Assembly: GCF_024029435.1 (NCBI RefSeq)
Contig: NZ_CP097118.1
Location: 124,001-188,000, forward strand
DNA length: 64,000 nt
DNA from: Fructilactobacillus hinvesii
GTDB taxonomy: Bacteria; Bacillota; Bacilli; Lactobacillales; Lactobacillaceae
Reading direction: 5' to 3'
In this document: piece by piece, positions 3,298 to 23,173 of the stretch
Numbering within the stretch: the stretch's first letter is position 1
Layout: each line of letters opens with the position of its first letter
The notes under the pieces: generated by a model
Told to the model about the DNA's origin: nothing
Seen by the model: only the letters and a program-made list of their open reading frames with translations
Database searches by the model: none
Translations under genes and position numbers: made by a program

Positions 3298-4296
3298 CTA
3301 CTCGTTGATTGGGTACAATGGAGTGCCCTTTTCCAACGTGTTGGCAAAGTTCTCAAAGCTAATCCGAATCATGTCTTCTACCGCTGGTTCCGTAAAGAAG
3401 CCCATGTGCGGGGTTACCAGCACGTTCGGGTAGTTTTTCATTAATTCAATGTTAATTGGGCTCGGTAAATCATCGAGGGAGTCAAACTGTTTGCCAATGA
3501 TGGCGTCTTCATCCAAGATCACATCGGTTCCATAACCACCGATTTTGTTGCTTCGGATTGCATCAGCTACCGCTTGGTTATCAACCACTTGGCCCCGTGC
3601 GGTGTTAACCAAAATGGCATCATCCTTCATTTTATCAAGTTCTGCATCACCAATGAGATTACCAGTTTGACCAGGAATGTACGGAATGTGCAGTGAAACG
3701 ATGTCTGACTTATGCAGCAAAGTATCCATATCCGTAAATTCAACCACATCATTGTTTGGATCTGGTTTCCGTTTGAACGCCAATACCTTAGCTCCTAAAG
3801 CCTTGTACAGCTTAGCTTCGGTCATCCCAATCTTACCAGCTCCAATGATTCCAACCGTAGCGCTGTGAATTTCGTTAGCGTAATAAGTGGGTAGCAAGCG
3901 AAAATCACCGGCATGGGTGTTAGCAGTCGCTTGAGAAACATTCCGGAAGAGGGTTAACCCTAAACTCAGTGACAATTCAGCCACAGCCCGTGGTGAGTAG
4001 TTTGGAACATTTGCCACTTGAATCCCTAGGTTCCGGGCTGCTTTCACGTTAATGTTGTTAATTCCCACCACTCGAGTGTAAATGTACTTAACGCCGTAAC
4101 CAGCTAATTTTTCAATTACTTCTTCATCACAGTCATCAAAGGCCGTGATTAAAATAGCATCGGCTCCGTCCGCACGGTCCACGTTATCAAGCGTCATCCG
4201 TTCTGCAACTAAAGTCAGCTCATAATTATCTTTGTTCAACTTCTCAAACAGTGGGGTTTCCACCTCACGTACGTTATACACAGTTATTTTAAACAT
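3298..4296 (-). CDS. D-lactate dehydrogenase family protein, copy 1
   Basis: The protein has about 332 residues and begins MFKITVYNVREVE. GAGGAG lies 7 nt from this ATG, whereas the alternative ATG two codons earlier is too close. The nucleotide-binding loop is GIIGAGKIGM, and the Arg (NTARGQ), Glu (GTDVILDEDA) and His (TPHMGFFTEP) catalytic triad of the D-LDH family is present. It would convert pyruvate and NADH to D-lactate, the terminal NAD-regenerating step of lactic fermentation. First gene of a four-gene minus-strand run; the spacer at 4303-4467 separates it from the divergent acyltransferase. Confidence 0.9.
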   Translation of the reverse strand: MFKITVYNVREVETPLFEKLNKDNYELTLVAERMTLDNVDRADGADAILITAFDDCDEEVIEKLAGYGVKYIYTRVVGINNINVKAARNLGIQVANVPNYSPRAVAELSLSLGLTLFRNVSQATANTHAGDFRLLPTYYANEIHSATVGIIGAGKIGMTEAKLYKALGAKVLAFKRKPDPNNDVVEFTDMDTLLHKSDIVSLHIPYIPGQTGNLIGDAELDKMKDDAILVNTARGQVVDNQAVADAIRSNKIGGYGTDVILDEDAIIGKQFDSLDDLPSPINIELMKNYPNVLVTPHMGFFTEPAVEDMIRISFENFANTLEKGTPLYPINE

Positions 4297-4467
4297 ATTC
4301 ATTCTCCTCGTTGGGTCGTCTACTTCTAATTATAAGGTACTTCGAATTTAGATGGCAAGAAATTAGGAAAACTCTATAATTTAGATTTGAAAAGCAGTGA
4401 AATTTGACCAAATCAATGTCATACTTAGAAATGGTGTTAATAAAGTCTTAAGAAAGGTGCTTAGTTT

Positions 4468-5526: not shown

Positions 5527-7227
5527 ATGCTAAAATTACAACGTGTTTTTAAAGACCATCTGCAAGAAATAATTGTCATCGGTTTTGCTTTCATATCATT
5601 ATTAATGATTCTTCCGTTGCTCCACGGTGGAATTGTTTATAATCAATTTGATTTACAATTTCATTTAACGAGTGTTCAGGAGAGTTACTTAAATTTAAAA
5701 AACGGAAATTGGAATCAGATTGTTCCTGCAATCAGTACGAGGAGCTTTGGTTCCTTTGGATATCCCAATAATCTTTTTTATCCGATTTTTACGTTCTTAC
5801 CTGAAGCACTTATTCATTTAATTATCCCTAATCCTTGGTTAGCCTATCTTTTATTCATGGCTCTAGTCATATTTTTGATTTTTATTTCAATGTACATCCT
5901 AGGATTAAAGCTAAAATTCCCGGTATTTGCTTCAGCATTAGGTGCTTTAATTTATGGTTTTTCTGGATTCGTATTTCTCTGGTCCTATAATAATGAAGAT
6001 CTTGCCCAAGTAATTGGATTAATGTTTCTGCCAATGGTCTTTTGGGGACTTTATCAGATCATTTTAAAAAAGCAAAACAAATGGATTTGGCTTAGCTTGG
6101 GTATGTTTGGAATTGCCATGACGCATATTCTGTCATTATTAATAGTTTCATTTTTTGTTGCCTTTCTTCTTCTATTTTTATTAATTAATCCCCATCAATC
6201 ATGGAAGGAAAAAGGAAAACGATTCTTGAAATTTATTTATGCAACAATCACTACTATTCTGATGGGATCATTTTTTCTCATTCCACTAGCAGTTAATATG
6301 CACTATAACGGTGACATCACGGTCGCAATCCTGCAACTAAGCAAGTTTACCATTTCTCTTTCTAATTTCTTCTTTAGTAATATTTACGCAATTCACACTC
6401 AGCCTAATTGGACGGAATCAAGTGGAATTGGAATCACCAGTTTAATTACGTTACTGGTAATTGCTTTCAATTGGAAAAAGTTAAATTTTTTCTTTAAATA
6501 TTTAACAATTGGATTAGGATTATTCAGTCTTCTTTGTACCAATCTCTTCCCTTGGGATTTATTCCAAAACTTACTAAAATTCATTCAATTCCCGATTCGC
6601 TTCATGATGATTGTAAGTTTCTTAATTGCTCTAATTGGAGCAAAATCCTTTGCAAATCTTGAATTAGATTCGTCTTCTCTTCTTAATCAAAAAAATTATC
6701 AAAAACTAACTATCAGCTTATTTTTATTTTTAGGAATTTGCTCTTTCTATTCTGGAGCAGAATTTTTAAAGCACGGTGGCTTAAATAATCTTTCTCAAAA
6801 ACAATTCAAACGGGTCGCCACAAAATGGAATACGTTAGACTACTTGCCTCCCCAAGCGGTTAAGATTCAACCCAAATTAGAGGATCACGCTACCGCAAAA
6901 CTAAATCCCGGTAAAAAAATTAAACAAAAGAATTATCAGACAAAACCAAATGAACTTATCTATACAATCAATAGTTCTAAATCTTATTCAAAAATAGTTA
7001 TTCCGACTATTTATTACCCTGGATTTCAAACCACTGTAAATAATAGAGTCGTAAAAGTTAGAACAAATCAAAATAGAGCCATCGTGGTTCCAATTCAAAA
7101 GGGAGTTAATAAAATAACCGTGAAATACCAAGATCCCTTAATTAAAGTTGTTGCAATTTGGATCAGTATTTTCACTTGGATATTTATTCTCTTCAAATTT
7201 ATTTATAATTGGAAATTTGAAAGATAG
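5527..7227 (+). CDS. YfhO-like / PTPS-related multi-spanning membrane protein
   Basis: This 566-residue protein has about twelve hydrophobic segments and a hydrophilic domain of about 120 residues (roughly 425-545) before a final helix. The first outer loop FDLQFHLTSVQESY and the LFYPIFTFLP segment match the layout of YfhO-like GT-C proteins. The C-terminal external domain (PTIYYPGFQTTVNN, then VPIQKGVNKITVKYQDP) is also typical of YfhO proteins. It probably transfers a sugar from a lipid carrier outside the membrane. It is co-directional with the acyltransferase before it and strongly AT-rich. The partial gene at the window start is a likely paralogue. Confidence 0.75.
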   Translation: MLKLQRVFKDHLQEIIVIGFAFISLLMILPLLHGGIVYNQFDLQFHLTSVQESYLNLKNGNWNQIVPAISTRSFGSFGYPNNLFYPIFTFLPEALIHLIIPNPWLAYLLFMALVIFLIFISMYILGLKLKFPVFASALGALIYGFSGFVFLWSYNNEDLAQVIGLMFLPMVFWGLYQIILKKQNKWIWLSLGMFGIAMTHILSLLIVSFFVAFLLLFLLINPHQSWKEKGKRFLKFIYATITTILMGSFFLIPLAVNMHYNGDITVAILQLSKFTISLSNFFFSNIYAIHTQPNWTESSGIGITSLITLLVIAFNWKKLNFFFKYLTIGLGLFSLLCTNLFPWDLFQNLLKFIQFPIRFMMIVSFLIALIGAKSFANLELDSSSLLNQKNYQKLTISLFLFLGICSFYSGAEFLKHGGLNNLSQKQFKRVATKWNTLDYLPPQAVKIQPKLEDHATAKLNPGKKIKQKNYQTKPNELIYTINSSKSYSKIVIPTIYYPGFQTTVNNRVVKVRTNQNRAIVVPIQKGVNKITVKYQDPLIKVVAIWISIFTWIFILFKFIYNWKFER

Positions 7228-7300
7228 CAAAAGCTATCCGTGGCGTTGACCTGTACCCCCATAGGTTAAAATTAAAATTTTAATGGCTCTACAATTTTTG

Positions 7301-7344
7301 GTACTGATGACATTCACTAAGTGAATGTGGTCAGTACCTTTTTT
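7301..7344 (+). terminator. Hairpin with T run just inside the IS left end
   Basis: GTACTGA pairs with TCAGTAC and ACATTCAC with GTGAATGT around a TAA loop. A T6 run follows. It would stop transcription entering the element from the upstream gene. Confidence 0.65.
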
Positions 7345-7368
7345 GTATACTTAGTGAAAATAAAAAAA

Positions 7369-7397
7369 GAACATATCGGACGATCCCCGATATGTTC
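7369..7397 (+). repeat. Perfect inverted repeat in IS leader
   Basis: The arms GAACATATCGG and CCGATATGTTC (11 bp each) surround a 7-nt loop. They lie between the left IS end and the transposase start. Confidence 0.7.
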
Positions 7398-7423
7398 CCA
7401 ACCCCTAAAAGGAGTTAATTGTT

Positions 7424-7876
7424 ATGAATGAAATAACAATCAACAATTATATTAGGCCTCACAGACCCTAATATAATTGTTGATGATACCATGAAATCCA
7501 GAACAATTGTTAAAGAAGATGGCATCACTAAAAATTATTGGCACTTTATTTTAACTTATAAATCAAAGTGCAAAAACTGTGGACATTACTTGAATAAGAA
7601 TGGCTTTAAAAAGGTTCAACACTTGGCACCCGCAGGTCTTTGGGGCTTAAATTTTATTGTCATCAAGAAGAAATCAAAAATAGCTTTACTTATTCCTTCA
7701 GTAATGGTCCTTTAGAAGGAATTAATAACAAAATCAAAGTCATAAATAGAACCGCTGATGGTCATCGTAGTTTCAAGAATTTCAGACTTAGAATTCTCAT
7801 CTCATTTTCAAACAACTATTTCTCAAAAAATTATAAACAAAAAGCGACAGAATCGATTAAGGATTCCATCGCCTAG
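7424..7876 (+). pseudogene. ISL3 family transposase remnant
   Basis: AAAGGAG precedes an ATG at 7424. The first frame (MNEITINNYI) breaks after about ten codons; the next frame continues as LGLTDPNIIVDDTMKSR, typical of the ISL3 N-terminus. A CKNCGHYL zinc-binding half follows. The reading then jumps into another frame whose sequence NGPLEGINNKIKVINRTADGHRSF is the conserved ISL3 C-terminus. About two thirds of a normal transposase (around 420 residues) is missing, including most of the catalytic core. The gene therefore has at least two frame disruptions and a large deletion. Confidence 0.82.
7439..7484. repeat. Perfect 18-bp inverted repeat over the transposase start
   Basis: ATCAACAATTATATTAGG at 7439-7456 is repeated exactly in inverted orientation at 7467-7484, with a 10-nt loop. 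It lies only 15 nt after the transposase start codon and covers the site of the first frameshift. Confidence 0.8.
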
Positions 7877-7950
7877 TGTCAGACTCATTTATTAAATGAT
7901 CTACTCATCAGTACCATTTGACAAAGAGCCAAAAATGACAGCCTTGTTTA

Positions 7951-10900
7951 TTATTTAGTTTTTTTATCCATCTCATAAGTCAGATACAAATTAGTAGGAC
8001 TTACTTCCGGATAATTTCCGTACAATTCATGATTTCGATACGTAGGATTATCTTGATCAGCATGACTATATTGATATCCATCAATTTCTGGAATTTGTTT
8101 TGTATAATCCCATTTAGTCCCAACTTTACCGGTTAACTTCTTTGGTTGTGCAATTTCATTTCCATTTTCATCATGGAAATAAACTTTAACAACTCCCGCT
8201 GGCGCATAAGTTAAATAAACATTAGTTGGGCCTACCGCTGGATAATTTCCATACAGTTCATGATTTTGATACGTTGGGTTGTCTTGATCAGCGTGGTCAT
8301 ATTGATATCCGTTAATTTCTGGAATCCACTTTGTATAGTTCCAAGGAGTCCCCACATCATAATTCCAAGCAAAATGATCATGACCATCATTGGTTTGCAA
8401 TTGCTTCCCATTTTCATCATGGAAGTAGAAGTTAACCGTCCCAGTTTTATGATAAGTCAGATAAACATCAGTGGGACCTACAGCTGGATAATTTCCAGAT
8501 AGTTCATGATTTTGATACGTTGGATTATATTGATCGGCATGATCATAACGATAACCATTAATTTCTGGAATCCAGTTATGATAATCCCATGGAGTTGACA
8601 CATCGCCCTGCCAAACAAATTCACTCTTACCATCGTTAGTCTTAATTTCATTCCCATCTTGATCATGGAAGTGGAACCGAACTATTCCAGGTACATTTCT
8701 AGCATAAGTTAAGTAAACGTTAGTGGGACCTACAGCTGGATAATTTCCATACAGTTCATGATTTTGATACGTTGGGTTGTATTGATCAGCATGATCATAG
8801 CGATAGCCATTAATTTCTGGAATCCAGTTTTTGTAGTCCCATGGAGTGCCAATGTCATAATTCCAAGCAAAATGATCATGACCATCATTAGTTTGCAACG
8901 GATTTCCATTCTCATCATGGAAATAGAAGTTAACCGTTCCAGTCTTACGATAAGTCAGATAAACATCAGTGGGACCTACAGCTGGATAATTTCCATACAA
9001 TTCATGGTTTTGGTAAGTTGGATTGTATTGATCAGCATGATCATAACGATAACCGTTAATTTCTGGAATCCATCTCCGGTAATCCCACGGTGTAGCTATA
9101 TTTCCTTGCCAAACAAATTCATTCTGACCGTCGTTAGTTTTAATTTCATTCCCATCTTGATCATGGAAGTGGAACCGAACTATTCCAGGTATATTTCTAG
9201 CATAAGTTAAGTAAACGTTAGTGGGACCAACTGCTGGATAGTTTCCGTACAATTCATGGTTTTGATACGTTGGATTATATTGATCAGCATGTGAGTACCA
9301 GTAACCACTAATTGCAGGAATCCAATTCTTGTAATTCCACGGCGTACTAACATCATAAATCCAAGTAAAGTGATCATGACCATCATTAGTTTGCAATGGA
9401 TTTCCATTTTCATCATGGAAGTAAAAATTAACTTCTCCTTGCTTATGGTACGTTAAGTAAACATCTGTTGGTCCTTCTGCTGGGTAATTACCATATAATT
9501 CGTTATTTTGATACGTTGGATTCTCTTGAGAAGTATGGTCATAACGATAACCATCAATTTCTGGAACCCATTTTGTATAATCCCATGGTTGTCCTACTTC
9601 ACCATTCCAAGTAAAGGAATCATGACCATCGTTAGTCCGGAGCTCATTCCCATTTTCATCTTGGAAATGAAACCGAACTACACCAGGCTGATTTTTAACG
9701 TACGTTAAGTACACATTAATCACACCATACAGTGGATATTTACCTGACAAGGTATGGGTAACCTTTCCACCTTCATATTGATCAGCATGATCATAGCGAT
9801 AACCGTTAATCTGTGGAACCCACTTGGTATAATCCCAGTCAGTCCCAGCAAGGTATTGCCATGTAAAGTGGTCGTGACCATCATTGGTTTCAATTGGATT
9901 TCCATTTTCATCATGGAAATAAAAGTTTACAGTCCCTACTTTCGGTAATTCATCTTCTTTTCCAACCAAATTAAAGTAGTGCATTTGATTGTTAGAATAC
10001 ATATAAGCATCACGTAGCTCTACCCCATTAGGTAAGAAGAAATAAGTTTCACCATTAATTTCACGCTCACCAGTCACCATATTGCCGTTTTCATCGAAGT
10101 AATACCAGTTAGAAGCGTACGGAACAAAAGAGCTTTTAGCCTGATACCCACTTGTAGAATAATACTGGGTATTGTCCCCATTCTTAACGAATCCAGTTTC
10201 AGCACTACCTTCTAATAATTCTTTTGGTAGAAACACTTGACTATCATTTACAGTAAAGTAGCGATTCGAACCCCAGTCTTTTAAAACATACCAAGCACCA
10301 CGGCCCTGAATGTTAGTCCCATTAAAATATTTAGCAGACCATTCCTTAATCTTTTCATCAGGATTCATTGGTTGACCATTAGATACTTGTTTAGCTTCAA
10401 AGATCCAAGGATACATCTCTTTTAATTTATCTAAGAATGCACCACCGTATATCTTTTGATATTCTCCTCCACCAACTGTGTGAGAATCATAAAGAGTGCT
10501 TCCATCTAAATCAGAGTTCTTCACTGGATTCCCAGATTTATCCACTCGTTTAGCCGCTACCACTTCTTCACCTGGTAAATTATAGAGTTGGTCTGGAACC
10601 CAATCATCAATTGCCTGCATCCCATGAGCATGCAATGCCTTCAAACAATCTAATAACTGTTGGGCAGTTCCATACTTGGTCGGTGCCCCAAAACCAACAT
10701 CATAGCGATCAGTAAACGAGTATCCATTTTTAACTACGGAATCAACAAAACTACTATCCGTACTTGGTCGATATTGTGGTGCTAGCTCAAAACTAGTAAT
10801 TCCAATACTTTGGAAGAAATCAGCATTTTGCGCAATTTTAACGTTGGCATACTGATCAGTAGTGGTGGGCATATCTAAGAAATTAGAGAAACCTTCAAAA

Positions 10901-13671
10901 ATCATTTGTGAATCTAATGCCGCATTAGAATGATAAACATTTCCATCCGTAGAATCAGCAGTGCTACTTTCAGTTCTTGCATCTTGATTATTTGGCGCAC
11001 CAACTGGAACCCATACTGATAATGCTCCAGATACTTGAACATCACTAACCCCATAAACGTAATTACCATCTAAAATTAATTGGCCTTGATCATTGGTCCA
11101 AAGGGTTGGTGCTCCAGCGTCACTATCATAACTTTTTAAACCATTATTGGTTGACAGTAAAACCGCACGATACTGCTGGTTTCGGTGTGCAGCCCCCATA
11201 TTAATTACAATCTTATCTGTATCACTCAGCTTAAGATTCTTATTGTTACTGAGAACCACTGCCATTCCTTCAGTTCTAGTATTTTGGTCTCCCAAATCAT
11301 TGGCAGTCATTGCCCCTTTTCCGTAACGAACTGAGGTTAGAACTCCCCGATAATCATTAGGTCCCATTGACTGATTACCATTAACATATTGAACATTCAT
11401 GTTCTGGCCACCAGCTACATATTTAATTCTGGAACGTAACAGATTAACTAAAGCATCATAATATGGACTATGCTGTCCCATATATTGTCCATTGTCCATG
11501 AATAAGTCTCCGTAATAAATTCGCGGAACAGAGTCCTTATTCGTTAGTAACATGGCATAAGCAGCAGGAACATTATATAGAGCATACTTTTTATTAACAC
11601 TATTTAAATCATCATTATAAATCTCAAAGGCTTTTTTAATTTCATCTGGAGTAGGATTCAATCCATCTGCATCTGGATTAATTTGATCAGTAATGATTTT
11701 TCCAATTACTTCTTGTACTAAAGAATCATGAGCACGAATAAAGTTATAGTTAGGGTGAGCCTTGTTCTCACTAGAGTTTTCACCCTCACGGTTATTTAAA
11801 CTAGTCGTCATTAATGGTTCAAGTTTACTTCTATTCTCCGAAGGAGTTGTTAACCCATAAATAATCCCAAGGTGCCCTAAAAAGTCCATCGTTAACTGCG
11901 TATTGCCATGCTTAGCAACGTAGTCTGGATCAGCAAAACTCCAGTCTTCCAAAATTGATAAATGCTGATTGGCATTTTTATCATTTTTATTAATTCCATA
12001 CGCAGCTTTAAAGTAATCGCCAGCAATTTTTAATAAATCAGCATCTACGTTATCAACTGCATCAACTCGATATCCATCAAAGTGAGCATCAGGATCATTC
12101 GCAATGATGGTTCCTAAATTCATCATATAGTACAGCCAATTCAATTGTTCTGCTTGAACTGCTGGATTAGAGTTATCAATATCATTGGCTAACAGTAATT
12201 CATAACCATCCGTAACCTTTTTCTGTTGTCCTTCCTGGTTAACAGGATTGCGATTGATTAATCGGTAATCAGAGTTAGCATTAGGAGTCAATTTATTATT
12301 GACGTAAGACAGTGCTCCTCCCTGAAGATGATCATCACTTCTAAACTCACTCTTAATATTCCAAGCAGGTTGAGAATTGACAAAATGTGTAATATCCTCA
12401 CGTAACCAATCAACATTTCCTGAAGCTGTAATTCTTTTTTCAATGTTCTTTTGCACAGTTAGTGCCATAATATTTAATAATTTTTGATCAGCTTTAGCAA
12501 AATCAAATTTAACATTTGGTAATAACCCAGCAGCTTGCATATTTTGTAAATATGCCACTTGCGTGTCTTTATCAGGCCACCAAGCCATTAACAATGGTCG
12601 ACGATCAGAATCAGTAGAAGGAACCCATTGTTCCCCATTTTCATAAATATCTTTAGGTCGATACCATGAATTAGCAGTTAAAAATCCATCGACATTATCA
12701 AAATTCTTGGCATCCTTAGAATAAGCAACATTATGTTCATTTCCAATTGTTGTTAATCCAGTTTTAAATTGATCAGTTGGGGTGGTTAATTCACCAGTCG
12801 TATCATTAAACCACAAAGTTTGCCCGCCAATAACGACTGTAAAGTTCTTCCGTAATTGACCATAATCATCATAAAAATATGTCTTACCATCAATTTGGTG
12901 AATATGAGGATCATCATACTTAACCTCATTCTGATTTGTCGCATTTAAATTAGTAAATAAAGCTGGAGTAGAATTTTGTTTCTCTTGATTGTCATTATTT
13001 TCGGTTGATGGATTGGGTTGATTAGTAATTTCTGCCGGTTTACTAGTAATTTTTTGAGATCCGTCATCACTAACGACCTTTTCGGAATCTTTATTATGGT
13101 CAGTAGCTTGGTTTTTATCTAGATTGTTCTGATGATTAGAATCAGCTTGTTGCGTTTGATTAGAATCATTAGTTGAATTATTTATACCACTATCATCAGA
13201 TTGGGATTTATTTTGACTATCATTCTTTTCAAAAACATCAGAATGATTATCATTACTTGATTTGTCAGAATTGTCAGTTTGATTAGAATCTGATTTTTGT
13301 CCCGTAGAAATCGGTTGGTATTTAATTTCCGTACTATTAGAAGTTGTGTTGACCGTTTGAGTAATTTGAGATTGCTGTTGGTTATCATCACTCTTTTGTG
13401 ATGATTGAACAGAATCATTATCATTAATTTCTTTAACAGCTAACTGCTGATTAGATTTAGATTGATTATTATCAGTAGAATTATTTGGAGACTGAACAGC
13501 CGTGCTGGTTTGATTTACAGAATTAATCTGATCATCGGCATGAGTAGTCATACTAGGTAATATTCCCACCAATCCCAACGCCACAGTTGCAACTGTTAAA
13601 CAAGCATATACCCACTGCTTTCCCTTTTTGTACATTTTATAATGTTCTTTAATTTCCTGGCCTGGTCTCAA
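7951..13671 (-). CDS. GH70 glucansucrase with C-terminal MucBP-like repeats
   Basis: A secreted 1906-residue enzyme that would build alpha-glucan from sucrose. The TTG start follows AAAGGAG with 8-nt spacing. Residues 12-20 match the KxYKxGKxW signal motif, with likely cleavage after THA. Residues about 45-235 are Asn/Ser/Gln-rich linker. The permuted GH70 barrel follows: nucleophile D537 (FDGYRVDAVDN), acid/base E575 (SILEDWS), stabiliser D649 (RAHDSLVQ), then motif I (DDWVPDQLYNLPG) later in the chain, as expected for GH70. Only single YG/cell-wall-binding-like units flank the core. Residues about 1246-1906 are eight MucBP-like repeats of about 82 residues. There is no LPxTG anchor. Motif IV has Leu651 where dextransucrases usually have Glu. 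Confidence 0.93.
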   Translation of the reverse strand: MRPGQEIKEHYKMYKKGKQWVYACLTVATVALGLVGILPSMTTHADDQINSVNQTSTAVQSPNNSTDNNQSKSNQQLAVKEINDNDSVQSSQKSDDNQQQSQITQTVNTTSNSTEIKYQPISTGQKSDSNQTDNSDKSSNDNHSDVFEKNDSQNKSQSDDSGINNSTNDSNQTQQADSNHQNNLDKNQATDHNKDSEKVVSDDGSQKITSKPAEITNQPNPSTENNDNQEKQNSTPALFTNLNATNQNEVKYDDPHIHQIDGKTYFYDDYGQLRKNFTVVIGGQTLWFNDTTGELTTPTDQFKTGLTTIGNEHNVAYSKDAKNFDNVDGFLTANSWYRPKDIYENGEQWVPSTDSDRRPLLMAWWPDKDTQVAYLQNMQAAGLLPNVKFDFAKADQKLLNIMALTVQKNIEKRITASGNVDWLREDITHFVNSQPAWNIKSEFRSDDHLQGGALSYVNNKLTPNANSDYRLINRNPVNQEGQQKKVTDGYELLLANDIDNSNPAVQAEQLNWLYYMMNLGTIIANDPDAHFDGYRVDAVDNVDADLLKIAGDYFKAAYGINKNDKNANQHLSILEDWSFADPDYVAKHGNTQLTMDFLGHLGIIYGLTTPSENRSKLEPLMTTSLNNREGENSSENKAHPNYNFIRAHDSLVQEVIGKIITDQINPDADGLNPTPDEIKKAFEIYNDDLNSVNKKYALYNVPAAYAMLLTNKDSVPRIYYGDLFMDNGQYMGQHSPYYDALVNLLRSRIKYVAGGQNMNVQYVNGNQSMGPNDYRGVLTSVRYGKGAMTANDLGDQNTRTEGMAVVLSNNKNLKLSDTDKIVINMGAAHRNQQYRAVLLSTNNGLKSYDSDAGAPTLWTNDQGQLILDGNYVYGVSDVQVSGALSVWVPVGAPNNQDARTESSTADSTDGNVYHSNAALDSQMIFEGFSNFLDMPTTTDQYANVKIAQNADFFQSIGITSFELAPQYRPSTDSSFVDSVVKNGYSFTDRYDVGFGAPTKYGTAQQLLDCLKALHAHGMQAIDDWVPDQLYNLPGEEVVAAKRVDKSGNPVKNSDLDGSTLYDSHTVGGGEYQKIYGGAFLDKLKEMYPWIFEAKQVSNGQPMNPDEKIKEWSAKYFNGTNIQGRGAWYVLKDWGSNRYFTVNDSQVFLPKELLEGSAETGFVKNGDNTQYYSTSGYQAKSSFVPYASNWYYFDENGNMVTGEREINGETYFFLPNGVELRDAYMYSNNQMHYFNLVGKEDELPKVGTVNFYFHDENGNPIETNDGHDHFTWQYLAGTDWDYTKWVPQINGYRYDHADQYEGGKVTHTLSGKYPLYGVINVYLTYVKNQPGVVRFHFQDENGNELRTNDGHDSFTWNGEVGQPWDYTKWVPEIDGYRYDHTSQENPTYQNNELYGNYPAEGPTDVYLTYHKQGEVNFYFHDENGNPLQTNDGHDHFTWIYDVSTPWNYKNWIPAISGYWYSHADQYNPTYQNHELYGNYPAVGPTNVYLTYARNIPGIVRFHFHDQDGNEIKTNDGQNEFVWQGNIATPWDYRRWIPEINGYRYDHADQYNPTYQNHELYGNYPAVGPTDVYLTYRKTGTVNFYFHDENGNPLQTNDGHDHFAWNYDIGTPWDYKNWIPEINGYRYDHADQYNPTYQNHELYGNYPAVGPTNVYLTYARNVPGIVRFHFHDQDGNEIKTNDGKSEFVWQGDVSTPWDYHNWIPEINGYRYDHADQYNPTYQNHELSGNYPAVGPTDVYLTYHKTGTVNFYFHDENGKQLQTNDGHDHFAWNYDVGTPWNYTKWIPEINGYQYDHADQDNPTYQNHELYGNYPAVGPTNVYLTYAPAGVVKVYFHDENGNEIAQPKKLTGKVGTKWDYTKQIPEIDGYQYSHADQDNPTYRNHELYGNYPEVSPTNLYLTYEMDKKTK
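7954..9936 (-). repeat. Eight tandem MucBP-like coding repeats in an alternating A/B pattern
   Basis: The repeats encode units of about 82 residues that begin either VNFYFHDENGNPLQ (type A) or VRFHFHDQDGNEIK (type B) and end PTxVYLTY. The order is A, B, A, B, A, B, A, then a divergent last unit (VKVYFHDENGNEIAQPKKL). The true period is therefore about 495 bp. Inner units are most alike at DNA level and the first and last most divergent, as expected from expansion by unequal recombination. Confidence 0.88.
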
Positions 13672-13741
13672 TTACATAGCTCCTTTATTTATAAAATCAT
13701 TTTAAAAATTTAATGATTTCTTATTAATTAAAGTCTTGTTT

Positions 13742-13921: not shown

Positions 13922-14587
13922 TTAATAAGCTGCATTCGGTTTTACCATAATTTTTACTGTATTAAAAATTAATTTAAGGTCATAAAGCAATGAGCTTTTT
14001 TGAATATATTCTAAATCTAAATCAACCATCGTATTAAAGTCACCACTATTCCGGGTGGTGGTTTGCCAAAGCCCTGTACAGCCAGGGACAACTAAAAGTC
14101 GTTGCATATCGTAATCCGTATATTCAGCAACTTCACTAGGAATAGGCGGACGCGGTCCAACTAGGGACATGCTTCCCCCAATTACGTTTAATAACTGCGG
14201 TAATTCATCCAAACTATATTTACGAATAAACTTCCCCACGCGAGTAATCCGGGGATCATCTTTCATTTTAAACATTGCACCCTGAACTTCATTTTGGGCT
14301 TTTAGTTCGGCTAGTTTTTGATCAGCATTAGGAATCATTGACCGAAATTTAAACATTTGAAAATGCTTGCCGTTTTTACCAACTCGTTCTTGAACGTACA
14401 AAACTTTTCCATGGGAACCATCGAATTTAACTAAAAATGCAACTACTAGTAATAACGGGCTCAAAGCTAGCAATCCTAAGCAACTTAGTAATACATCGAA
14501 GATTCGTTTAAATGTAAAATAAATCGGTCGATCCTGTACCTTTTTCGGATCAAGCTGAATTTTTGTTTGCATTCCACCTTCTACCAA
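13922..14587 (-). CDS. Polyprenyl-phosphate sugar-1-phosphate transferase (priming glycosyltransferase)
   Basis: This 221-residue protein is the catalytic module of the bacterial sugar-transferase family. It has one N-terminal membrane helix (about residues 27-53), then ERVGKNGKHFQMFKFRSM, DPRITRVGKFIRKYSLDELPQL and SLVGPRPP, all hallmark blocks. It moves a sugar-1-phosphate from a UDP-sugar to undecaprenyl phosphate to start the repeat unit. The CpsE/WcaJ N-terminal membrane domain is absent. Start is a TTG with AAAGGTGA upstream; an ATG five codons later lacks spacing. It is the last gene of the operon, an unusual position, separated from wzx by 122 bp. Confidence 0.88.
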   Translation of the reverse strand: MVEGGMQTKIQLDPKKVQDRPIYFTFKRIFDVLLSCLGLLALSPLLLVVAFLVKFDGSHGKVLYVQERVGKNGKHFQMFKFRSMIPNADQKLAELKAQNEVQGAMFKMKDDPRITRVGKFIRKYSLDELPQLLNVIGGSMSLVGPRPPIPSEVAEYTDYDMQRLLVVPGCTGLWQTTTRNSGDFNTMVDLDLEYIQKSSLLYDLKLIFNTVKIMVKPNAAY

Positions 14588-14709: not shown

Positions 14710-16131
14710 TTAATTCTTTTTGATTACCTTTTGTAGTACATTTTGCACTAGTTGCGGTCGTAATATTAACAACATCAATAGATAGCTAATCATTCCGACC
14801 ACAATTTCTAAAGCAAGCATCCCCCAGGTATCTTTCAACTCAATATCCATGGTAAACACTAATAAAAACATTATAATTCCAGCAATTAAATACTTGAAAT
14901 AACCATTGAATAACCGTTTCAAGTCGATTTGATCCCTAATAATATAAATTTGATAGATTGTAACACATAACTCCGAAAGAACCGTTGCAAGCGCCGTTCC
15001 GGCTGCTCCCCACAGTAAAATTAGTGGGATATTGGCAACAATATTCACAATTGCTCCTAAAATAACAGAATAGTTATAAGCTTTATTTTGTCCCGTCGGA
15101 ACCAAATATTGCACTCCAATTGCATTACTCCAAGCAATTAATACAATTACAATTGCTTCTAGCATCATCAAAGGAATCACTGGCATAAATTTAGAAGAAA
15201 AGAACAATGGAACAAACGAAGGTGCAACTGCCGCAATTCCACAAGTTAAAGGGATTGAAAGTGCCGTAACAAATTCAAACGTAGTGTATAAATAACCACG
15301 AACTCTTTCCATTTCTCCCCGTTGAAATGCATTAGCAACGTGGGGAAGCATCACCATTCCGGTCGCGGTTACAACCGCTAGTGACATTTTAATAATTTTA
15401 TCCGACTGACCAAAGAAACCAGCTTGGGTTACATTGGTCATTAATCCCAACATGTACTTATTCACATATAAATAAATTTGGGTGGCAATTTCGGGAATAA
15501 AAAGAACTAAAGATGGATGTAAATGCTTCCACAAATGAAAATGTTTCCAATCGGGTAACCCAATGTACCGCTTCAAACTAGGAAAGAGCGTCAAATTACC
15601 AATTAATAATGAGAGCGATAAAATCAAAATATAAGTAGCTAAATCACTATATGATTTAACTAACGTAAAAATACTAATTAAAGTAATGATTTTAACTAAT
15701 AGATTTCTCAGTACGGTTACCGCAAAGTTCTCGACACCTTGAAAAAACCAAGAGATGTCAAAAGCAGCAGCTAATAATGAGAATGATTGGGCGAGATAAT
15801 AAATTTGAAACCGATGTACTAACGAAAGGAAAATAAAGAAAGCCACATACGCAATTCCAATGGTAATCATCCGCATGAAAAATATTTCATAAAAAGTATT
15901 AGTTAACTTTTCTCGATTATTACGAACGTATGCAACTTGGCGGTTCCCATACAATGCCACGCCAATACTACCAAAAATAATAAAAAATTGAATTACCGCG
16001 TTAGTATAATCATTAATTCCAACCCCTTTTGGCCCTAAAACTCGAGCCAAATAAGGTGAAGTAATCAAAGGAACTAATAAAATAAAAATCTGGTAAAAAG
16101 CATTGTATAGGTAATTTTTAATTACCTTCAT
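14710..16131 (-). CDS. Wzx-type oligosaccharide flippase
   Basis: This 473-residue, roughly 14-helix protein is of the MATE-like polysaccharide exporter superfamily. It begins MKVIKNYLYNAFYQIFILLVP and has ITSPYLARVLGPKGVGINDY at about residues 24-43, both typical of RfbX/Wzx flippases. It would flip the lipid-linked repeat unit made by the neighbouring enzymes to the outer face. It starts 6 bp after glf. Presence of Wzx with Wzy places this locus in the Wzx/Wzy-dependent class. Confidence 0.9.
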   Translation of the reverse strand: MKVIKNYLYNAFYQIFILLVPLITSPYLARVLGPKGVGINDYTNAVIQFFIIFGSIGVALYGNRQVAYVRNNREKLTNTFYEIFFMRMITIGIAYVAFFIFLSLVHRFQIYYLAQSFSLLAAAFDISWFFQGVENFAVTVLRNLLVKIITLISIFTLVKSYSDLATYILILSLSLLIGNLTLFPSLKRYIGLPDWKHFHLWKHLHPSLVLFIPEIATQIYLYVNKYMLGLMTNVTQAGFFGQSDKIIKMSLAVVTATGMVMLPHVANAFQRGEMERVRGYLYTTFEFVTALSIPLTCGIAAVAPSFVPLFFSSKFMPVIPLMMLEAIVIVLIAWSNAIGVQYLVPTGQNKAYNYSVILGAIVNIVANIPLILLWGAAGTALATVLSELCVTIYQIYIIRDQIDLKRLFNGYFKYLIAGIIMFLLVFTMDIELKDTWGMLALEIVVGMISYLLMLLILRPQLVQNVLQKVIKKN

Positions 16132-16137
16132 TATTAA

Positions 16138-17256
16138 TTACTCACCAAACTCAGTTTTAACTAAACGCAAAGCAGACATGATCGTTTGATCCATGTTGTA
16201 GTAACGATATTGTCCTAATCGACCACCAAAGACAACGTTATCAGCTTCTTTAGCTGCTAAATCAGTATATTGCTTGTAAAGGGACCGATTCTGCTTGTTA
16301 TCAATTGGATAGTATGGTTCATCACCACGATGCCAATCCTTGGGATATTCGTGGGTAATCACAGTTTTGCCCTTGTTCCCCTTACCAAATTCAAAGTGTT
16401 TGTGTTCAATTACCCGGGTAAATGGTGTTTCGGCATCAGTGTAGTTAACTACCGCATTTCCTTGGTAGTTATCAACATCTTTAACCTCAGTTTCAAACCG
16501 TAAGCTCCGGTATTCCAATTCACCAAGGGCATAGTCAAAGAATTGGTCAATCATCCCGGTGAAAATAATCCGCTTGCCAGAGTTTAAATACTCATCTTTG
16601 TGCGCAAAGAAATCGGTGTTCAACTTCACGTCAATTAAGTCACTGGACAACATTTTTTCAACAATTTGCGTGTAGCCGCCCTTAGGAATTCCTTGGTATG
16701 GATCGCTAAAGTAGTTGTTATCATAAATAAACCGAACCGGAATTCGACGAATAATAAAGGAAGGTAAATCAACTGCTTTTCTTCCCCATTGTTTTTCGGT
16801 GTAACCTTTAACTAATTTTTCATAAATATCGGTTCCAACTAAGGAGAGCGCTTGTTCTTCTAGGTTAGTGGGCTTTTCTGGAACGTTCGCATTCTGCTTT
16901 TGTTCTTCAATTTTAGCCTGGGCTTCTGCCGGTGTCCGAACCCCCCAGAGCTTACTAAAGGTATTCATATTAAACGGTAAGTTATAAATTTCCCCGTTGT
17001 AATTAGCAATTGGACTATTAACGTAATTATTAAATTCGGCAAACTGGTGTACATATTCCCAGATGTCCTTCATTTTCGTGTGGAAAATGTGTGCTCCATA
17101 CTGGTGAACCTGGATCCCTTCCACTTCTTTGGTATAAATATTTCCCGCGATGTGGTCACGTTTTTCAATTACTTCTACGTGATTACCACGTTTTGCTGCT
17201 TCGTAGGCAAACGTTGATCCAAATAAACCTGAACCAACTACTAAATAATCAGTCAT
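16138..17256 (-). CDS. glf: UDP-galactopyranose mutase
   Basis: This 372-residue FAD enzyme converts UDP-galactopyranose to UDP-galactofuranose. Evidence: the N-terminal dinucleotide fold DYLVVGSGLFGSTFAYEAAKRG, then HIAGNIYT, YGAHIFHT, the TEKQWGRKAVDLP block near residue 173, and the C-terminal GGRLGQYRYYNMDQ. Length is normal for the family. GGAGG precedes the ATG, and the start overlaps the end of wzy by 8 bp, implying coupled translation. With the GlfT2-like transferase nearby, it implies that the polymer contains galactofuranose. Confidence 0.95.
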   Translation of the reverse strand: MTDYLVVGSGLFGSTFAYEAAKRGNHVEVIEKRDHIAGNIYTKEVEGIQVHQYGAHIFHTKMKDIWEYVHQFAEFNNYVNSPIANYNGEIYNLPFNMNTFSKLWGVRTPAEAQAKIEEQKQNANVPEKPTNLEEQALSLVGTDIYEKLVKGYTEKQWGRKAVDLPSFIIRRIPVRFIYDNNYFSDPYQGIPKGGYTQIVEKMLSSDLIDVKLNTDFFAHKDEYLNSGKRIIFTGMIDQFFDYALGELEYRSLRFETEVKDVDNYQGNAVVNYTDAETPFTRVIEHKHFEFGKGNKGKTVITHEYPKDWHRGDEPYYPIDNKQNRSLYKQYTDLAAKEADNVVFGGRLGQYRYYNMDQTIMSALRLVKTEFGE

Positions 17257-18520
17257 TTTCGTTCCTCCAATTTGGTAGTTCTTTACAAACCATAAAAATC
17301 AAAATGAAAATTAATAAAGGGGTTTCATTGACAATCGTTAGGGTTAATAAAACCATGACCAATAATAACACAAACGCATCAACATAATGTTTTCGCATAA
17401 AGGCCATGATTAACGGAATCAGGTAAAAAGCAAGAAAGATAACTCCACCATATGATAAGATCTGTAGAATCCCTAATGAAAAGCCATGATTCCCCCCCTT
17501 CATTAACCGGTAACTAGCCATCAACCGTTTAATGGCACGAAGGTTCCCTAGTCCATTCCCAAAAATTGGACTCTGTAAGAACGAGTTCCAGCCAGCCTTA
17601 ATGTCATCCGACCTAATGCTAACGGATCCTTGAAATGTATTGACTTTATTAATCCAAATCAAGGATAGACCCACTAGTAAAAGTCCTCCTAGTCCAATCC
17701 AAATGTAATATTTTTTTCTTCTCGGTAATCTAGTATATAAATCCCAATGCTTCATTACCAAGTTCCCTACCAAAGCCAAGAAGCAAATCAGCAATCCAGT
17801 GGTAGAAACCGTAGTAATAATTGTGGCAAACAACACAATTCCCCGAAAATAATAAGTAGGTGAATGCTTCAAATAAAACAAATTAAAAATAAAGGCAACG
17901 GATAACACAAACGAAAACATTGGTGCTTCTGCATAAAGGCCTGTATTTCTGACTAGTTGGAGGCCAAAGAAGCTGGCTGGCTCCTGGGCTAAAAAGTGAA
18001 GTCCCCAGAAACCCGGAACGTAGTGTTTTCCACCCCAATTAATGAAAATTTGTGAATTAAATGGATATTGGATTTCTGCCAGAATCCAGAAAAATAATGA
18101 AATAATTGCAAGTACCACAGCAATATTTACAATTGCAGAGAGCAACTTTGTTCCGCGTTTTAGCAAGAAAACCAGCATACAAAAGCAGAAAAATAAAACT
18201 GGAATCACTAAGTAAAATAGGAAAACATGAAAGAAATGGAATTTATAGTTTAAAAAGCTAATTAACAAAAATAGTGATATTAAAACTACATAGGTGCCGA
18301 CTACCTTAAATATAAGGCCATAATTAACGTGGATCTGATACTTTTTTAACACTAGAAAATACACTAAAATCCCCAAGCTAGTGAATAAGGGAACCACTAA
18401 CCTGAGTTCCTTAGGAAAAAATCCAGGAGCTACAAAATAAACCACGTTCGTGGATAATAACAAAAAAAGTGAAAACAAATAGTCAGCCACTGATAATAAT
18501 TTAAGATCTTTGTTTTCCAT
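17249..18520 (-). CDS. Wzy-type O-antigen/polysaccharide polymerase
   Basis: This 423-residue protein has about 11 membrane segments and a large outer loop (about residues 165-205) containing RNTGLYAEAPMFSF, a motif often seen in Wzy/O-antigen-ligase proteins of Gram-positive polysaccharide loci. It would link flipped repeat units into polymer outside the membrane. Sequence identity among Wzy proteins is low, so the call rests on topology, the loop motif and its place between a glycosyltransferase and glf. It starts 17 bp after the preceding stop. Confidence 0.82.
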   Translation of the reverse strand: MENKDLKLLSVADYLFSLFLLLSTNVVYFVAPGFFPKELRLVVPLFTSLGILVYFLVLKKYQIHVNYGLIFKVVGTYVVLISLFLLISFLNYKFHFFHVFLFYLVIPVLFFCFCMLVFLLKRGTKLLSAIVNIAVVLAIISLFFWILAEIQYPFNSQIFINWGGKHYVPGFWGLHFLAQEPASFFGLQLVRNTGLYAEAPMFSFVLSVAFIFNLFYLKHSPTYYFRGIVLFATIITTVSTTGLLICFLALVGNLVMKHWDLYTRLPRRKKYYIWIGLGGLLLVGLSLIWINKVNTFQGSVSIRSDDIKAGWNSFLQSPIFGNGLGNLRAIKRLMASYRLMKGGNHGFSLGILQILSYGGVIFLAFYLIPLIMAFMRKHYVDAFVLLLVMVLLTLTIVNETPLLIFILIFMVCKELPNWRNEND

Positions 18521-18537: not shown

Positions 18538-19467
18538 TTAATTATGCTTTTTAAATTGGGGAAATTGGATGGTAGGCTTAAAAAAGAGCCCTTTCCAGTA
18601 ACCCTTGGTTAACACTCTTACTTTTTTTAGTTTATATTGCGACTTCCCAAACGTAATTTTAAACAACAGGTAAAAATACTTCAGCCCGTTTTTCACGCGA
18701 TCGCGTTTTCCAAACTCACGGGCAATGTAGGCTTGATTTCTAAAGTTATAGTAATAACGGCCAATTTTATCCGGGTTTTGTTCCGCAATAATATCAACTC
18801 CGGTATTGGCTTTAGTGGCGTGTTCCACTAAGCTACTACCCACAAAGTAGCCATCAAATCGTTGGGTGATCCGCCGTGAATACTCCACGTCGTCTCCCCA
18901 AATGAAAAATTCAGCAACTGGTAACCCACACTGCCGAACTGCTGCATCGCTAATCAACATCGAAACAAACGAAGAAGACGTAATTCCAACTAGTCCTTGT
19001 TCAGCGTATTGATTCCACTGCTCATTAACTTGAGGAATGTTCATGATGGCTGGCACGGAATCTTTTCCCCACCGAACGTTACTTGCCAATACTCCCACTT
19101 GCTCTGGCTGATTGACCTTTTGCAACGCCGCAATTAATTCTTGCAGTGAGTCTTGCTTCGGATATGTATCGTCATCCATTACCCAATAATAATCGAATTG
19201 ATTTGCTTCACATGCAATTTTAAGGCCCGCACTAAAACCACCGGCGCCTCCAACGTTCTGGTCTAAGTTAACTACCTCAATTAAATCATTATCTAACGTT
19301 GCTAAATAATCAGTTGTCCCGTCAGTACTAGCATTATTAATGACATAAATCTTAGCAGGCAAATACTGCTGTGCTAGCAGATAATTAAGTGATTCTTTCA
19401 AGTACTGTAAACGATTAAACGTTACCAAGACGACTGCAACGTTTGGATTATAATTAAAATCAGTCAT
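18538..19467 (-). CDS. GT2 glycosyltransferase, galactofuranosyltransferase GlfT2-like
   Basis: This 309-residue GT-A-type transferase starts with VAVVLVTFNRLQYLKESL and INNASTDGT. The metal-binding motif is the triple Asp in YWVMDDDTYP (about residue 97) and the catalytic-base region is WGDDVEYSRRI (about 209). Both resemble GlfT2-like enzymes that use UDP-galactofuranose, matching the glf gene two genes on. It is probably a cytosolic enzyme at the membrane face. It begins 3 bp after the stop of the GT4 gene. The exact linkage cannot be inferred. Confidence 0.85.
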   Translation of the reverse strand: MTDFNYNPNVAVVLVTFNRLQYLKESLNYLLAQQYLPAKIYVINNASTDGTTDYLATLDNDLIEVVNLDQNVGGAGGFSAGLKIACEANQFDYYWVMDDDTYPKQDSLQELIAALQKVNQPEQVGVLASNVRWGKDSVPAIMNIPQVNEQWNQYAEQGLVGITSSSFVSMLISDAAVRQCGLPVAEFFIWGDDVEYSRRITQRFDGYFVGSSLVEHATKANTGVDIIAEQNPDKIGRYYYNFRNQAYIAREFGKRDRVKNGLKYFYLLFKITFGKSQYKLKKVRVLTKGYWKGLFFKPTIQFPQFKKHN

Positions 19468-19470
19468 AAA

Positions 19471-20550
19471 CTACTCCATATATTGATCGATTGCATTCAT
19501 AAAAACTTCAAAATAGTTTGCGCTATAGAATTGGTTAATCGAATTCTTAATTTTCTGTGGATCGTTAAAATCAACCTGGCGGTCAATGAATTTTTGTAAA
19601 ACATGCGCCAGTTGTTGTGAGTCCCCACTTTGATACAAATAACCATTGTCACTATTCACGATATCATCCGGGCCGGTATCACAATTAGAAGAAATCACAG
19701 GGATTCCATTCGCAATCGCTTCATTTAGAACCATCGGTAATCCTTCAAACGTCGAAGTTAACACTAAAGCATCACATTTTTTCACTTCATGCCACAAATC
19801 ATCTGCAAAACCATGAAAATGAATTCGATCGGATATCCCCAGCTTTTGCACATATTCCTGTGCCTCTGCGACATCTCCCATACCATAAACATCTAGTTGC
19901 CATTTTCCATGTGTTTGACTTAACCCGTCAAATAATTCATGAAGATTCTTTTGGCCATTCATCATGATCCGCCCAACATATAGAAAATGAGTCGGTTCAT
20001 CGGGCGCCGAACGCGGAACCACGTGGTCCGTTTTTACAATTGGATTATAGATTACATTGATTTTAGACTGAGGAATGCCCCGCTGCTCCAATTGATGGGC
20101 AATTCCCGTGCTAATTACCAAATAACCATCCGCTGCCTTCAAAAACATTTCGGGAACTTGGTGGGAATCTAACGAGAAATGGTACCACGCCATCACTTGA
20201 TAGTGATAACCGAAGATTCTTTTCAATACCGTCAAACAAAACCACATAATGTAACTATTAGAAATAACCACGTCCGGACGTTCTTTTCTGATCTGATGAT
20301 TCAGGATAAAGAATAAAGAAATTAAATACTCAATTTTTCTAATTTTTTTGTTGCGACTTAACTGTAAAACCGTTTTATTTTTAATTTTACTCAACCAACC
20401 AGTATCAATCGTTCCCCCAATGCTACTTAGGCTTAATTGATACCGATCGTTTGGCAACGTCTTGTTGTATTCATCGAAAAGATTTTCGATAACCGTCTCT
20501 GTGCCCCCGTATCCAGTCATAAAGGGAACAAAAATCATAATTTTTTTCAT
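19471..20550 (-). CDS. GT4 family glycosyltransferase
   Basis: This 359-residue retaining GT-B transferase has a donor-binding domain carrying LYVGRIMMNGQKNLHEL (about residues 207-223) and the E-x7-E region EGLPMVLNEAIANGIPVISS (about 288-307), both hallmarks of GT4. The N-terminal MIFVPFMTGYGGTETVIENL is the acceptor-side glycine loop. It adds a sugar to the growing lipid-linked repeat unit. It lies 16 bp downstream of the DUF4422 gene within the operon. Confidence 0.9.
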   Translation of the reverse strand: MKKIMIFVPFMTGYGGTETVIENLFDEYNKTLPNDRYQLSLSSIGGTIDTGWLSKIKNKTVLQLSRNKKIRKIEYLISLFFILNHQIRKERPDVVISNSYIMWFCLTVLKRIFGYHYQVMAWYHFSLDSHQVPEMFLKAADGYLVISTGIAHQLEQRGIPQSKINVIYNPIVKTDHVVPRSAPDEPTHFLYVGRIMMNGQKNLHELFDGLSQTHGKWQLDVYGMGDVAEAQEYVQKLGISDRIHFHGFADDLWHEVKKCDALVLTSTFEGLPMVLNEAIANGIPVISSNCDTGPDDIVNSDNGYLYQSGDSQQLAHVLQKFIDRQVDFNDPQKIKNSINQFYSANYFEVFMNAIDQYME

Positions 20551-20566: not shown

Positions 20567-21364
20567 CTAAAAGTGCGAATTCACTTGATTTTTGTCATCG
20601 TTATTTTGGAACTTTCGTTTCAAAAAGCCCCAAGCCTTTTTGATTAACTGTCGATCTCCAATTTGAACCCAATTACATTCCACAAATTTGACTTGGTTCT
20701 TGGTGACCCAAACATCCATCAACAATTCGGACAGATAGCCATACACACGCGCCTCTTGGACGGAATAATTAGAGATGTCCGTTTGTTCCTGCACTTTAAA
20801 TAAAACGGGGAAAATGAACTCACAATAGTCATCAAAGGCAGTTTTCTTCATGATGAACATGTTAAACATGTGGGCCGACCGACGATTAAGCACTTGATCA
20901 AACGAGGACAAATAGTCAGGATAGTCCTGCTTAATTACATTTCTCAAATTAATTAAGGGTTGCTCATGATGGGAATGAACGTAATGAGAGTAAATCGTTT
21001 CAATCACGTAGTGCCGTTTCTTAGGTAAAACTACTGGTGCTTTTTCTAATAACTCAGCCACCTCTGCCGAAGTTAAAACATGCTCCAAATCACGCTTATG
21101 CGTCTTACTAAAAAGCCGTCGGTAGTGAACTAAACCCACAGCATCAACATCTGGCAGGTTCTTAAAAGCCCAGTAAACGGCCGTTAATTCGTTATAGTTC
21201 GGATTTAACCGAGAAATGTTCGTTCCCGTATTGTCTAGTTGATACCCCTTTTGCCCCTTAAAGTTTCGATCTGCTCCGACCAAAATGGGCAGATAAACCG
21301 GATCTTTAGGCATTGGTGCATCTTTATGAGTGGCGACCAAAACTTTGGCTTTAATTGAAATCAA
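20567..21364 (-). CDS. DUF4422 family glycosyltransferase
   Basis: The frame encodes about 262-265 residues of the DUF4422 family found in capsule loci and regarded as glycosyltransferases. Hallmarks are VLVATHKDAPMP at the start, YLPILVGA, GTNISRLNPNYNELTAVYWAFKN and VGLVHYRR. The start is odd. AAAGGAG abuts the in-frame TTG at 21364 with no spacer, whereas an AUU codon at 21355 lies 9 nt from it and would give the N-terminus usual for the family. No ATG or GTG is near. I list the TTG coordinate and flag the AUU. Confidence 0.85.
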   Translation of the reverse strand: MISIKAKVLVATHKDAPMPKDPVYLPILVGADRNFKGQKGYQLDNTGTNISRLNPNYNELTAVYWAFKNLPDVDAVGLVHYRRLFSKTHKRDLEHVLTSAEVAELLEKAPVVLPKKRHYVIETIYSHYVHSHHEQPLINLRNVIKQDYPDYLSSFDQVLNRRSAHMFNMFIMKKTAFDDYCEFIFPVLFKVQEQTDISNYSVQEARVYGYLSELLMDVWVTKNQVKFVECNWVQIGDRQLIKKAWGFLKRKFQNNDDKNQVNSHF

Positions 21365-22183: not shown

Positions 22184-23173
22184 TTAATTTAAAGCGATAT
22201 CTCCAGTGGTGGCCTGCGGCAGATCTAAACTACTTCTGATTTGGTTGGTCGTCTTTTGTAGTTCAGATTGTGGCGTAACTTCCATATCTTGCCCTTGAAT
22301 TTCTTCTCCAGACTGCCCGCTTAAGTACGTGTTTTCAATGTTGTTACGAGCCGACAGGTATCCCGTTGCAATCGCTGAGAGATCGGAGAATTGCAAGTCA
22401 GTTTGTGTGTTTTTCGCAATCGAGTTGATGAAGTTTTGGTTTAATAATGAAGTTACGGAACCGCTCTTTGTAACCACTCCTTCCAATAATTGTCGTTGCC
22501 GTTGTTCCCGGCCAAAATCTCCCCGGGGGTCATCGTAACGCATCCGAGAGTAAGCTAAGGCTTTCTTTCCGTCCATCTTCGTTGGTTGTCCCTTAGTGAA
22601 GTGGTACCCTTCGTAGTCAAAAGTCAGTTCTGGTGAAATCGTTACCCCACCAACCTGATCCACAATTTGGACTAATCCGCGCATGTTAATCAAGGCATAG
22701 TAATCAATCGGTACGTTCAGCATCTTTTGCACCGTTTGAATGGCAGTTTTAGCACTTCCATATGCATAAGCAGCGTTAATCTTAGCTGGAGATTGATCTG
22801 AGTAACCTGGGATGTTAACGGCCGTATCCCGAGGAATGCTGGTGATTAAAGTTTTGTGCGTAGTGGGGTTAATGGTTACGATCATCATGGTATCGGTTCG
22901 TCCTTTGTAAGTCCGCCCCAATTCCCCTGTATCGGTTCCCATCAGTAGGATGGAAATCGGCTTTTTGTTTTTCAACAGAGAACTCGTGTCCCGCTCTTTT
23001 TGTAAACCGGCACTGTTATAAGCATTATTAACCGCGTTTTTAACGGCAAAGTACTTATAGGAACCAAAAGCCACTACCCCAAATAGTAAAACTAGAATAA
23101 TCGTCAAAATAATGTTTCGGGTTCGATGTGATTTTTTCGGTTGCTGATCACGATCTAATCGACTTTCTTCCAT
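22184..23173 (-). CDS. LytR-CpsA-Psr (LCP) family transferase
   Basis: This 329-residue protein has a cytoplasmic N-terminus, one membrane helix (about 20-42) and an external LCP domain. Hallmark residues are ILLMGTDTGELGRTYKGRTDTMM, ITSIPRDTAVNIPG, INAAYAYG and YSRMRYDDPRGDFGREQRQRQLL. LCP enzymes move undecaprenyl-linked glycans onto peptidoglycan outside the membrane. As first gene of the operon it suggests that the polymer is attached to the wall. AAAGGAG precedes the ATG. Confidence 0.93.
   Translation of the reverse strand: MEESRLDRDQQPKKSHRTRNIILTIILVLLFGVVAFGSYKYFAVKNAVNNAYNSAGLQKERDTSSLLKNKKPISILLMGTDTGELGRTYKGRTDTMMIVTINPTTHKTLITSIPRDTAVNIPGYSDQSPAKINAAYAYGSAKTAIQTVQKMLNVPIDYYALINMRGLVQIVDQVGGVTISPELTFDYEGYHFTKGQPTKMDGKKALAYSRMRYDDPRGDFGREQRQRQLLEGVVTKSGSVTSLLNQNFINSIAKNTQTDLQFSDLSAIATGYLSARNNIENTYLSGQSGEEIQGQDMEVTPQSELQKTTNQIRSSLDLPQATTGDIALN

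Follow-up and report, generated by a model that had tools for sequence, protein, structure and literature searches.

What do eight MucBP-like repeats do at the C-terminus of a glucansucrase? The question is raised by an open reading frame (ORF) at 7951..13671, on the minus strand of a 64,000-nucleotide stretch of the Fructilactobacillus hinvesii genome (contig NZ_CP097118.1, positions 124,001 to 188,000; hereafter the window). The gene has a TTG start, with AAAGGAG 8 nt upstream at 13680-13686, and its translation is 1906 residues long. We found a complete GH70 catalytic core followed by eight repeats that are, as judged from profile matches and a predicted structure, divergent MucBP domains; these appear to stand where related enzymes carry most of their C-terminal glucan-binding solenoid.

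The identity of the core was clear. PF02324 matched residues 360-1165 (10177..12594) over positions 1-830 of its 831 with 1069.4 bits, so the GH70 domain is full-length, and the assignment was also seen in alignment with solved glucosyltransferases, the top-scoring of which were streptococcal. The motifs YRVDAVDN, SILEDWS, and FIRAHDSLV (motifs II-IV) contain D537, E575, and D649, which by the roles assigned in the GH70 family we take to be the putative nucleophile, acid/base, and transition-state stabiliser, respectively. At the N-terminus there was a KxYKxGKxW signal peptide (residues 6-36, 13564..13656; PF19258, 50.5 bits; TIGR03715, 38.4 bits), followed by a low-complexity region rich in N, S, D, and Q that we delimited by eye in the translation (about residues 44-255, 12907..13542). 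By its sequence the protein is a glucansucrase with a secretion signal and with its catalytic motifs intact, and it is predicted to make alpha-glucan from sucrose; an initial annotation of the window, made from its letters, had named it a glucansucrase without stating the strand.

That annotation had also described a C-terminus lacking the usual YG/CW repeats, which was true of the eight repeats but not of the whole region behind the core. The best stretch of Choline_bind_3 (PF19127) fell at residues 1159-1201, ahead of the repeat array, and that of TIGR04035 at residues 1189-1234 (48.1 bits, under the model's cut-off of 147.7), together marking a short YG/CW (choline-binding-like, solenoid) remnant at residues 1159-1234 (9970..10197). 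The best stretches of PF19127, PF01473, and TIGR04035 all ended by residue 1234, and none lay in the eight repeats, whether these were scanned singly or together.

The array itself occupies residues 1248-1906, as the initial annotation had proposed to within a few residues, and consists of eight repeats of 79-84 residues (spacing 84/82/84/82/84/82/82) with pairwise identities of 45.6-89.0%. The whole protein matched PF06458 (MucBP) in two stretches with 47.6 bits. When the repeats were scanned singly against the Pfam cut-off of 23 bits, two of the eight passed, repeat 2 (r2, residues 1332-1413, 9433..9678; 31.1 bits) and r8 (residues 1828-1906, 7954..8190), the latter having the top MucBP score (35.6 bits). 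Two others stayed below the cut-off, r4 (residues 1498-1579, 8935..9180; 17.2 bits) and r6 (residues 1664-1745, 8437..8682; 16.4 bits), and there was no match for r1 (residues 1248-1331, 9679..9930), r3 (residues 1414-1497, 9181..9432), r5 (residues 1580-1663, 8683..8934), or r7 (residues 1746-1827, 8191..8436). The profile comparison therefore bore out the MucBP assignment for part of the array. Structure prediction carried it further: a model of r5-r6 had a fold like that of the solved MucBP domains of Lactococcus lactis YwfG and Listeria Lmo0835, although those domains sit in surface proteins with no glucansucrase. A two-repeat profile found no matches among PDB chain sequences. One might suppose that the repeats are a new glucan-binding module, a functional replacement for the solenoid that binds the enzyme's own alpha-glucan and keeps the growing chain near the active site. 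However, no glucan-binding family matched inside the repeats and the shared fold shows no ligand, and we think this explanation unlikely.

The repeats had been said to alternate between two types, A and B, and this held in part. The seven repeats r1-r7 can be divided 4/3 in 35 ways, and the division into odd (A) and even (B) repeats ranked first for the full repeat length and for columns 1-30 but 10th for columns 31-84; it follows that each repeat has a two-type first part (~30 residues) and a largely common second part. Two repeats fit less simply, as r2 is B by its hallmark residues but not clearly so by identity, and r8 is neither type. The two-unit period, put at about 495 bp in the initial annotation, measured 498 bp three times and 483 bp in the last block. 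The further claim that the array had expanded as a two-unit block found no support at synonymous sites. In r2-r7, synonymous-codon identity at codons for the same residue was 94/130 within types and 96/137 across types in columns 1-30, and 150/235 and 217/336, respectively, in columns 31-78; because this identity is independent of repeat type, we rejected a recent block expansion. Of the 13 pairs at most two repeats apart, the four that include r1 or r2 (r1-r2, r1-r3, r2-r3, and r2-r4) were within codon-usage chance, and the remaining nine, among r3-r8, were above it whatever the type.

Nonsynonymous (dN) and synonymous (dS) distances by NG86, which are approximate for repeats this short and near saturation, had the same two-part character. 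For r3-r5, r4-r6, and r5-r7, dN was 0.06-0.07 against a dS of 0.53-0.93, and the unlike neighbours r4-r5, r5-r6, and r6-r7 were further apart in the first part (dN 0.38-0.45) than in the second (dN 0.05-0.11). The pattern was less regular in the outer repeats: in its first part, r2 was separated from r4 (dN 0.34) and r6 (dN 0.38) by about the A-to-B distance, and r1-r3 had a dN of 0.45 in the second part. Our interpretation is that the array is old and maintained by selection, and not the product of a recent block expansion. Gene conversion between neighbouring repeats could also blur the synonymous signal, and the period-two pattern at the protein level may derive from an old block event.

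To see how rare this architecture is, we drew a sample of 397 genomes from the family, scoring at most two GH70 candidates per genome, and found a GH70 match in 81; 12 match rows (fragments, broken, or weak) were not made into loci. Together with loci from named genomes this gave 123 distinct GH70 ORFs, including this one. At least 60 residues follow the core in 94 of the 122 others (the end of a contig or stretch truncates 10 of the 94), and these formed the tail scan; the other 28, two of them likewise cut, lay outside it. At E <= 0.01, PF06458 was found in one of 95 GH70 C-terminal tails, that of this protein (scanned from residue 1206, past the main part of its YG/CW remnant), whereas Choline_bind_3 was found in 93 of the 94 others. 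A profile of the eight repeats, searched against ORFs of at least 300 residues in 241 loci, matched no GH70 ORF except this gene's own copies; beyond these it picked up eight ORFs in which GH70 gave no match, and another fragment of the gene studied here. In a large protein database, 3207 of 7982 candidates scored had a GH70 match, and among the best 120 of these 3207 PF06458 was found in one, again this protein. A search there with the array, in which we scored the 7996 candidates sharing most words and 0.55-1.75 times the query length, matched this protein and, weakly, one 1124-residue MucBP protein. The two components are each common in the genus: GH70 was present in six of ten Fructilactobacillus genomes and MucBP somewhere in all ten.

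The combination is nevertheless already known as a prediction. In the available text of Pijning et al. 2024 (PMC11299179), the F. hinvesii glucansucrase WP_252797321.1 (enzyme no. 092) has one MucBP domain predicted by NCBI and eight C-terminal ones in a model, of ~83 residues and 46.3-88.1% conserved; it is given there as the only such case in 259 GH70 enzymes, five other Fructilactobacillus GH70 enzymes being without MucBP. We found no difference from our protein in architecture, repeat number, or repeat length, and the identity range is nearly the same, and from these matches and the shared genus, rather than from an alignment, we infer that the two are probably one protein. The initial annotation had allowed that identical architectures might be well described and characterised; this one is in print, but we found no biochemistry of the enzyme in the literature searched. 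The main text of a 2026 study of Apilactobacillus kunkeei GH70 enzymes (PMC12849098), as far as it was available, contained no word starting with "mucin".

How, then, might the array be used? In agreement with the initial annotation, a motif search found no LPxT-type sortase motif at the C-terminus, and the highest 19-residue hydropathy in the repeats was 0.78, compared with 2.1 in the signal peptide and 1.1 anywhere past residue 60; the protein thus has neither the motif nor the hydrophobic segment of an LPxTG-anchored surface protein. We give about an even chance to the array being a module for non-covalent surface attachment or spacing, placed where its relatives have most of their glucan-binding solenoid. 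The repeats would form an elongated, acidic, aromatic-rich rod, in which the two alternating types may build a two-domain structural unit; this rod would attach the enzyme non-covalently to a glycan surface, or alternatively would keep the core at a distance from that surface, which could belong to the producing cell (its envelope or polysaccharide) or to a plant or an insect. Glucan would then be made at the surface and not on the enzyme's own product. There is a precedent in Leuconostoc IslA, DsrP, DsrE, and Asr, sucrose-acting polymerases whose C-terminal attachment region is of a non-sortase kind. According to PMC2270844, attachment of this sort is shown for IslA, while for DsrP and DsrE it is reported; the motifs proposed for these enzymes, however, are CW or GW repeats rather than MucBP.

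A point that weighs against binding is that the MucBP-type domains of YwfG bound no tested monosaccharide (PMC9815576), which would suit an array that serves as an inert spacer or stalk and has no specific ligand, any binding being left to the short YG/CW remnant. This would leave the low dN/dS among the r3-r7 pairs and the keeping of two repeat types to be accounted for. Long MucBP arrays do serve as stalks in surface proteins, but with no C-terminal covalent anchor found here a pure stalk would have no base to stand on, and we regard an inert stalk as improbable. The family name would suggest instead a true mucin or host-glycan adhesin, by which the enzyme docks on mucin-type glycans of the insect gut or of flowers. 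The array is the only multi-copy MucBP protein that we found in its own genome (PF06458, E <= 0.001), and the published protein belongs to a species that was obtained from flowers and that insects may exchange (PMC11299179). Yet "mucin" as the ligand rests on the family name, and with only two of eight repeats above the Pfam cut-off alone we consider such an adhesin very unlikely. Somewhat less remote, though still quite unlikely, is a bolder version of surface attachment in which the glucan-binding tail was traded for an adhesin array, the A and B types were selected as different binding faces, and the enzyme, once bound to a glycan of the envelope or of a foreign surface, makes its glucan at that site, as a surface-directed biofilm synthesis. 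If the array does bind a surface, a glucan-binding tail would be exchangeable for an adhesin without losing the enzyme, and nature would thus offer a design for directing glucan synthesis to a chosen place; at present, this is a rare and already reported domain combination in one species.

To place the core, we built a quick tree with 110 ORFs, leaving out of the 123 the 12 short or two-core ORFs and one piece from locus L013. The core was sister to the GH70 dextransucrase of Convivina intestini (SH-aLRT 98), a placement that is not firm because both branches of the pair are long (0.42), within a clade of 10 rows that also held dextransucrases of Leuconostoc gelidum/carnosum and Liquorilactobacillus satsumensis, with F. 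ixorae GH70 in the same clade. This enzyme and that of C. intestini (L005:7014-11492) were also the two of 92 motif matches with SLV after the third catalytic residue. The strain's second GH70 protein (1616 residues, with solenoid-type Pfam domains) fell away from this core in the tree.

A polysaccharide cluster of the same orientation ends at the gene and comprises a sugar transferase (13922-14587), a flippase (14710-16131), a UDP-galactopyranose mutase (16138-17256), a possible polymerase (17249-18520; Wzy_C, below its cut-off), glycosyltransferases (18538-20550), a DUF4422 protein (20567-21364), and LytR-CpsA-Psr (22184-23173). In F. myrtifloralis (G001), what comes after the flippase and sugar transferase genes is a gene for a 1182-residue KxYKxGKxW-type protein (L259:2360-5908, plus strand) with glucosaminidase, SH3_5, and NlpC/P60 domains; next are a YfhO-like gene in convergent orientation (38% identity to window 5527-7227) and a dehydrogenase (86% identity to window 3298-4302). 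The GH70 gene of that genome is elsewhere, outside this slot. Since the slot is filled there by another secreted surface enzyme, the comparison favours the glucansucrase having been gained, or having replaced another gene, between the sugar transferase and the YfhO-like gene. A cell-wall hydrolase in one species and a glucansucrase in the other may mean that the secreted surface enzyme encoded at this slot varies. The slot comparison left our estimates for the function of the array as they were. The place in genome G006 is not simply comparable because the sugar transferase and YfhO-like gene are there 13 kb apart and on the same strand. We found no support for the F. ixorae (G007) GH70 gene as a same-place ortholog: when its 10.5-kb stretch was compared in translation with window 1-30000, the GH70 gene matched and elsewhere there were only short scraps. 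Adjoining the glucansucrase gene is a stop-ridden stretch (7228-7950) that to our eye resembles a transposase remnant; two pieces of it matched no transposase family in Pfam, and insertion of an IS element as the gene's route to its place is unproven.

Elsewhere in the genome, MucBP (PF06458, E <= 0.001) was found as a single domain at three places: in a protein of a prophage tail region, in a frame that overlaps a tail tube gene, and in a protein of 265 residues. The first, of 905 residues, is encoded among prophage tail genes (L084:2533-5250, minus strand; genome C1, about 980.5-983.2 kb) and combines GH32 (PF00251, 121.7 bits), MucBP (46.9 bits), and a GH43-like stretch (33.2 bits, cut-off 32.2); its PHROGs matches were to a levanase and a tail protein, and it is possibly a phage tail protein with a fructan-cutting enzyme. 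The second is an 88-residue frame (L084:11469-11735, minus strand; MucBP, 42.5 bits) lying across the end of the tail tube gene (11680-12345), which is read in a different frame; by its position it looks as if it were joined to the tail tube by a translational frameshift.
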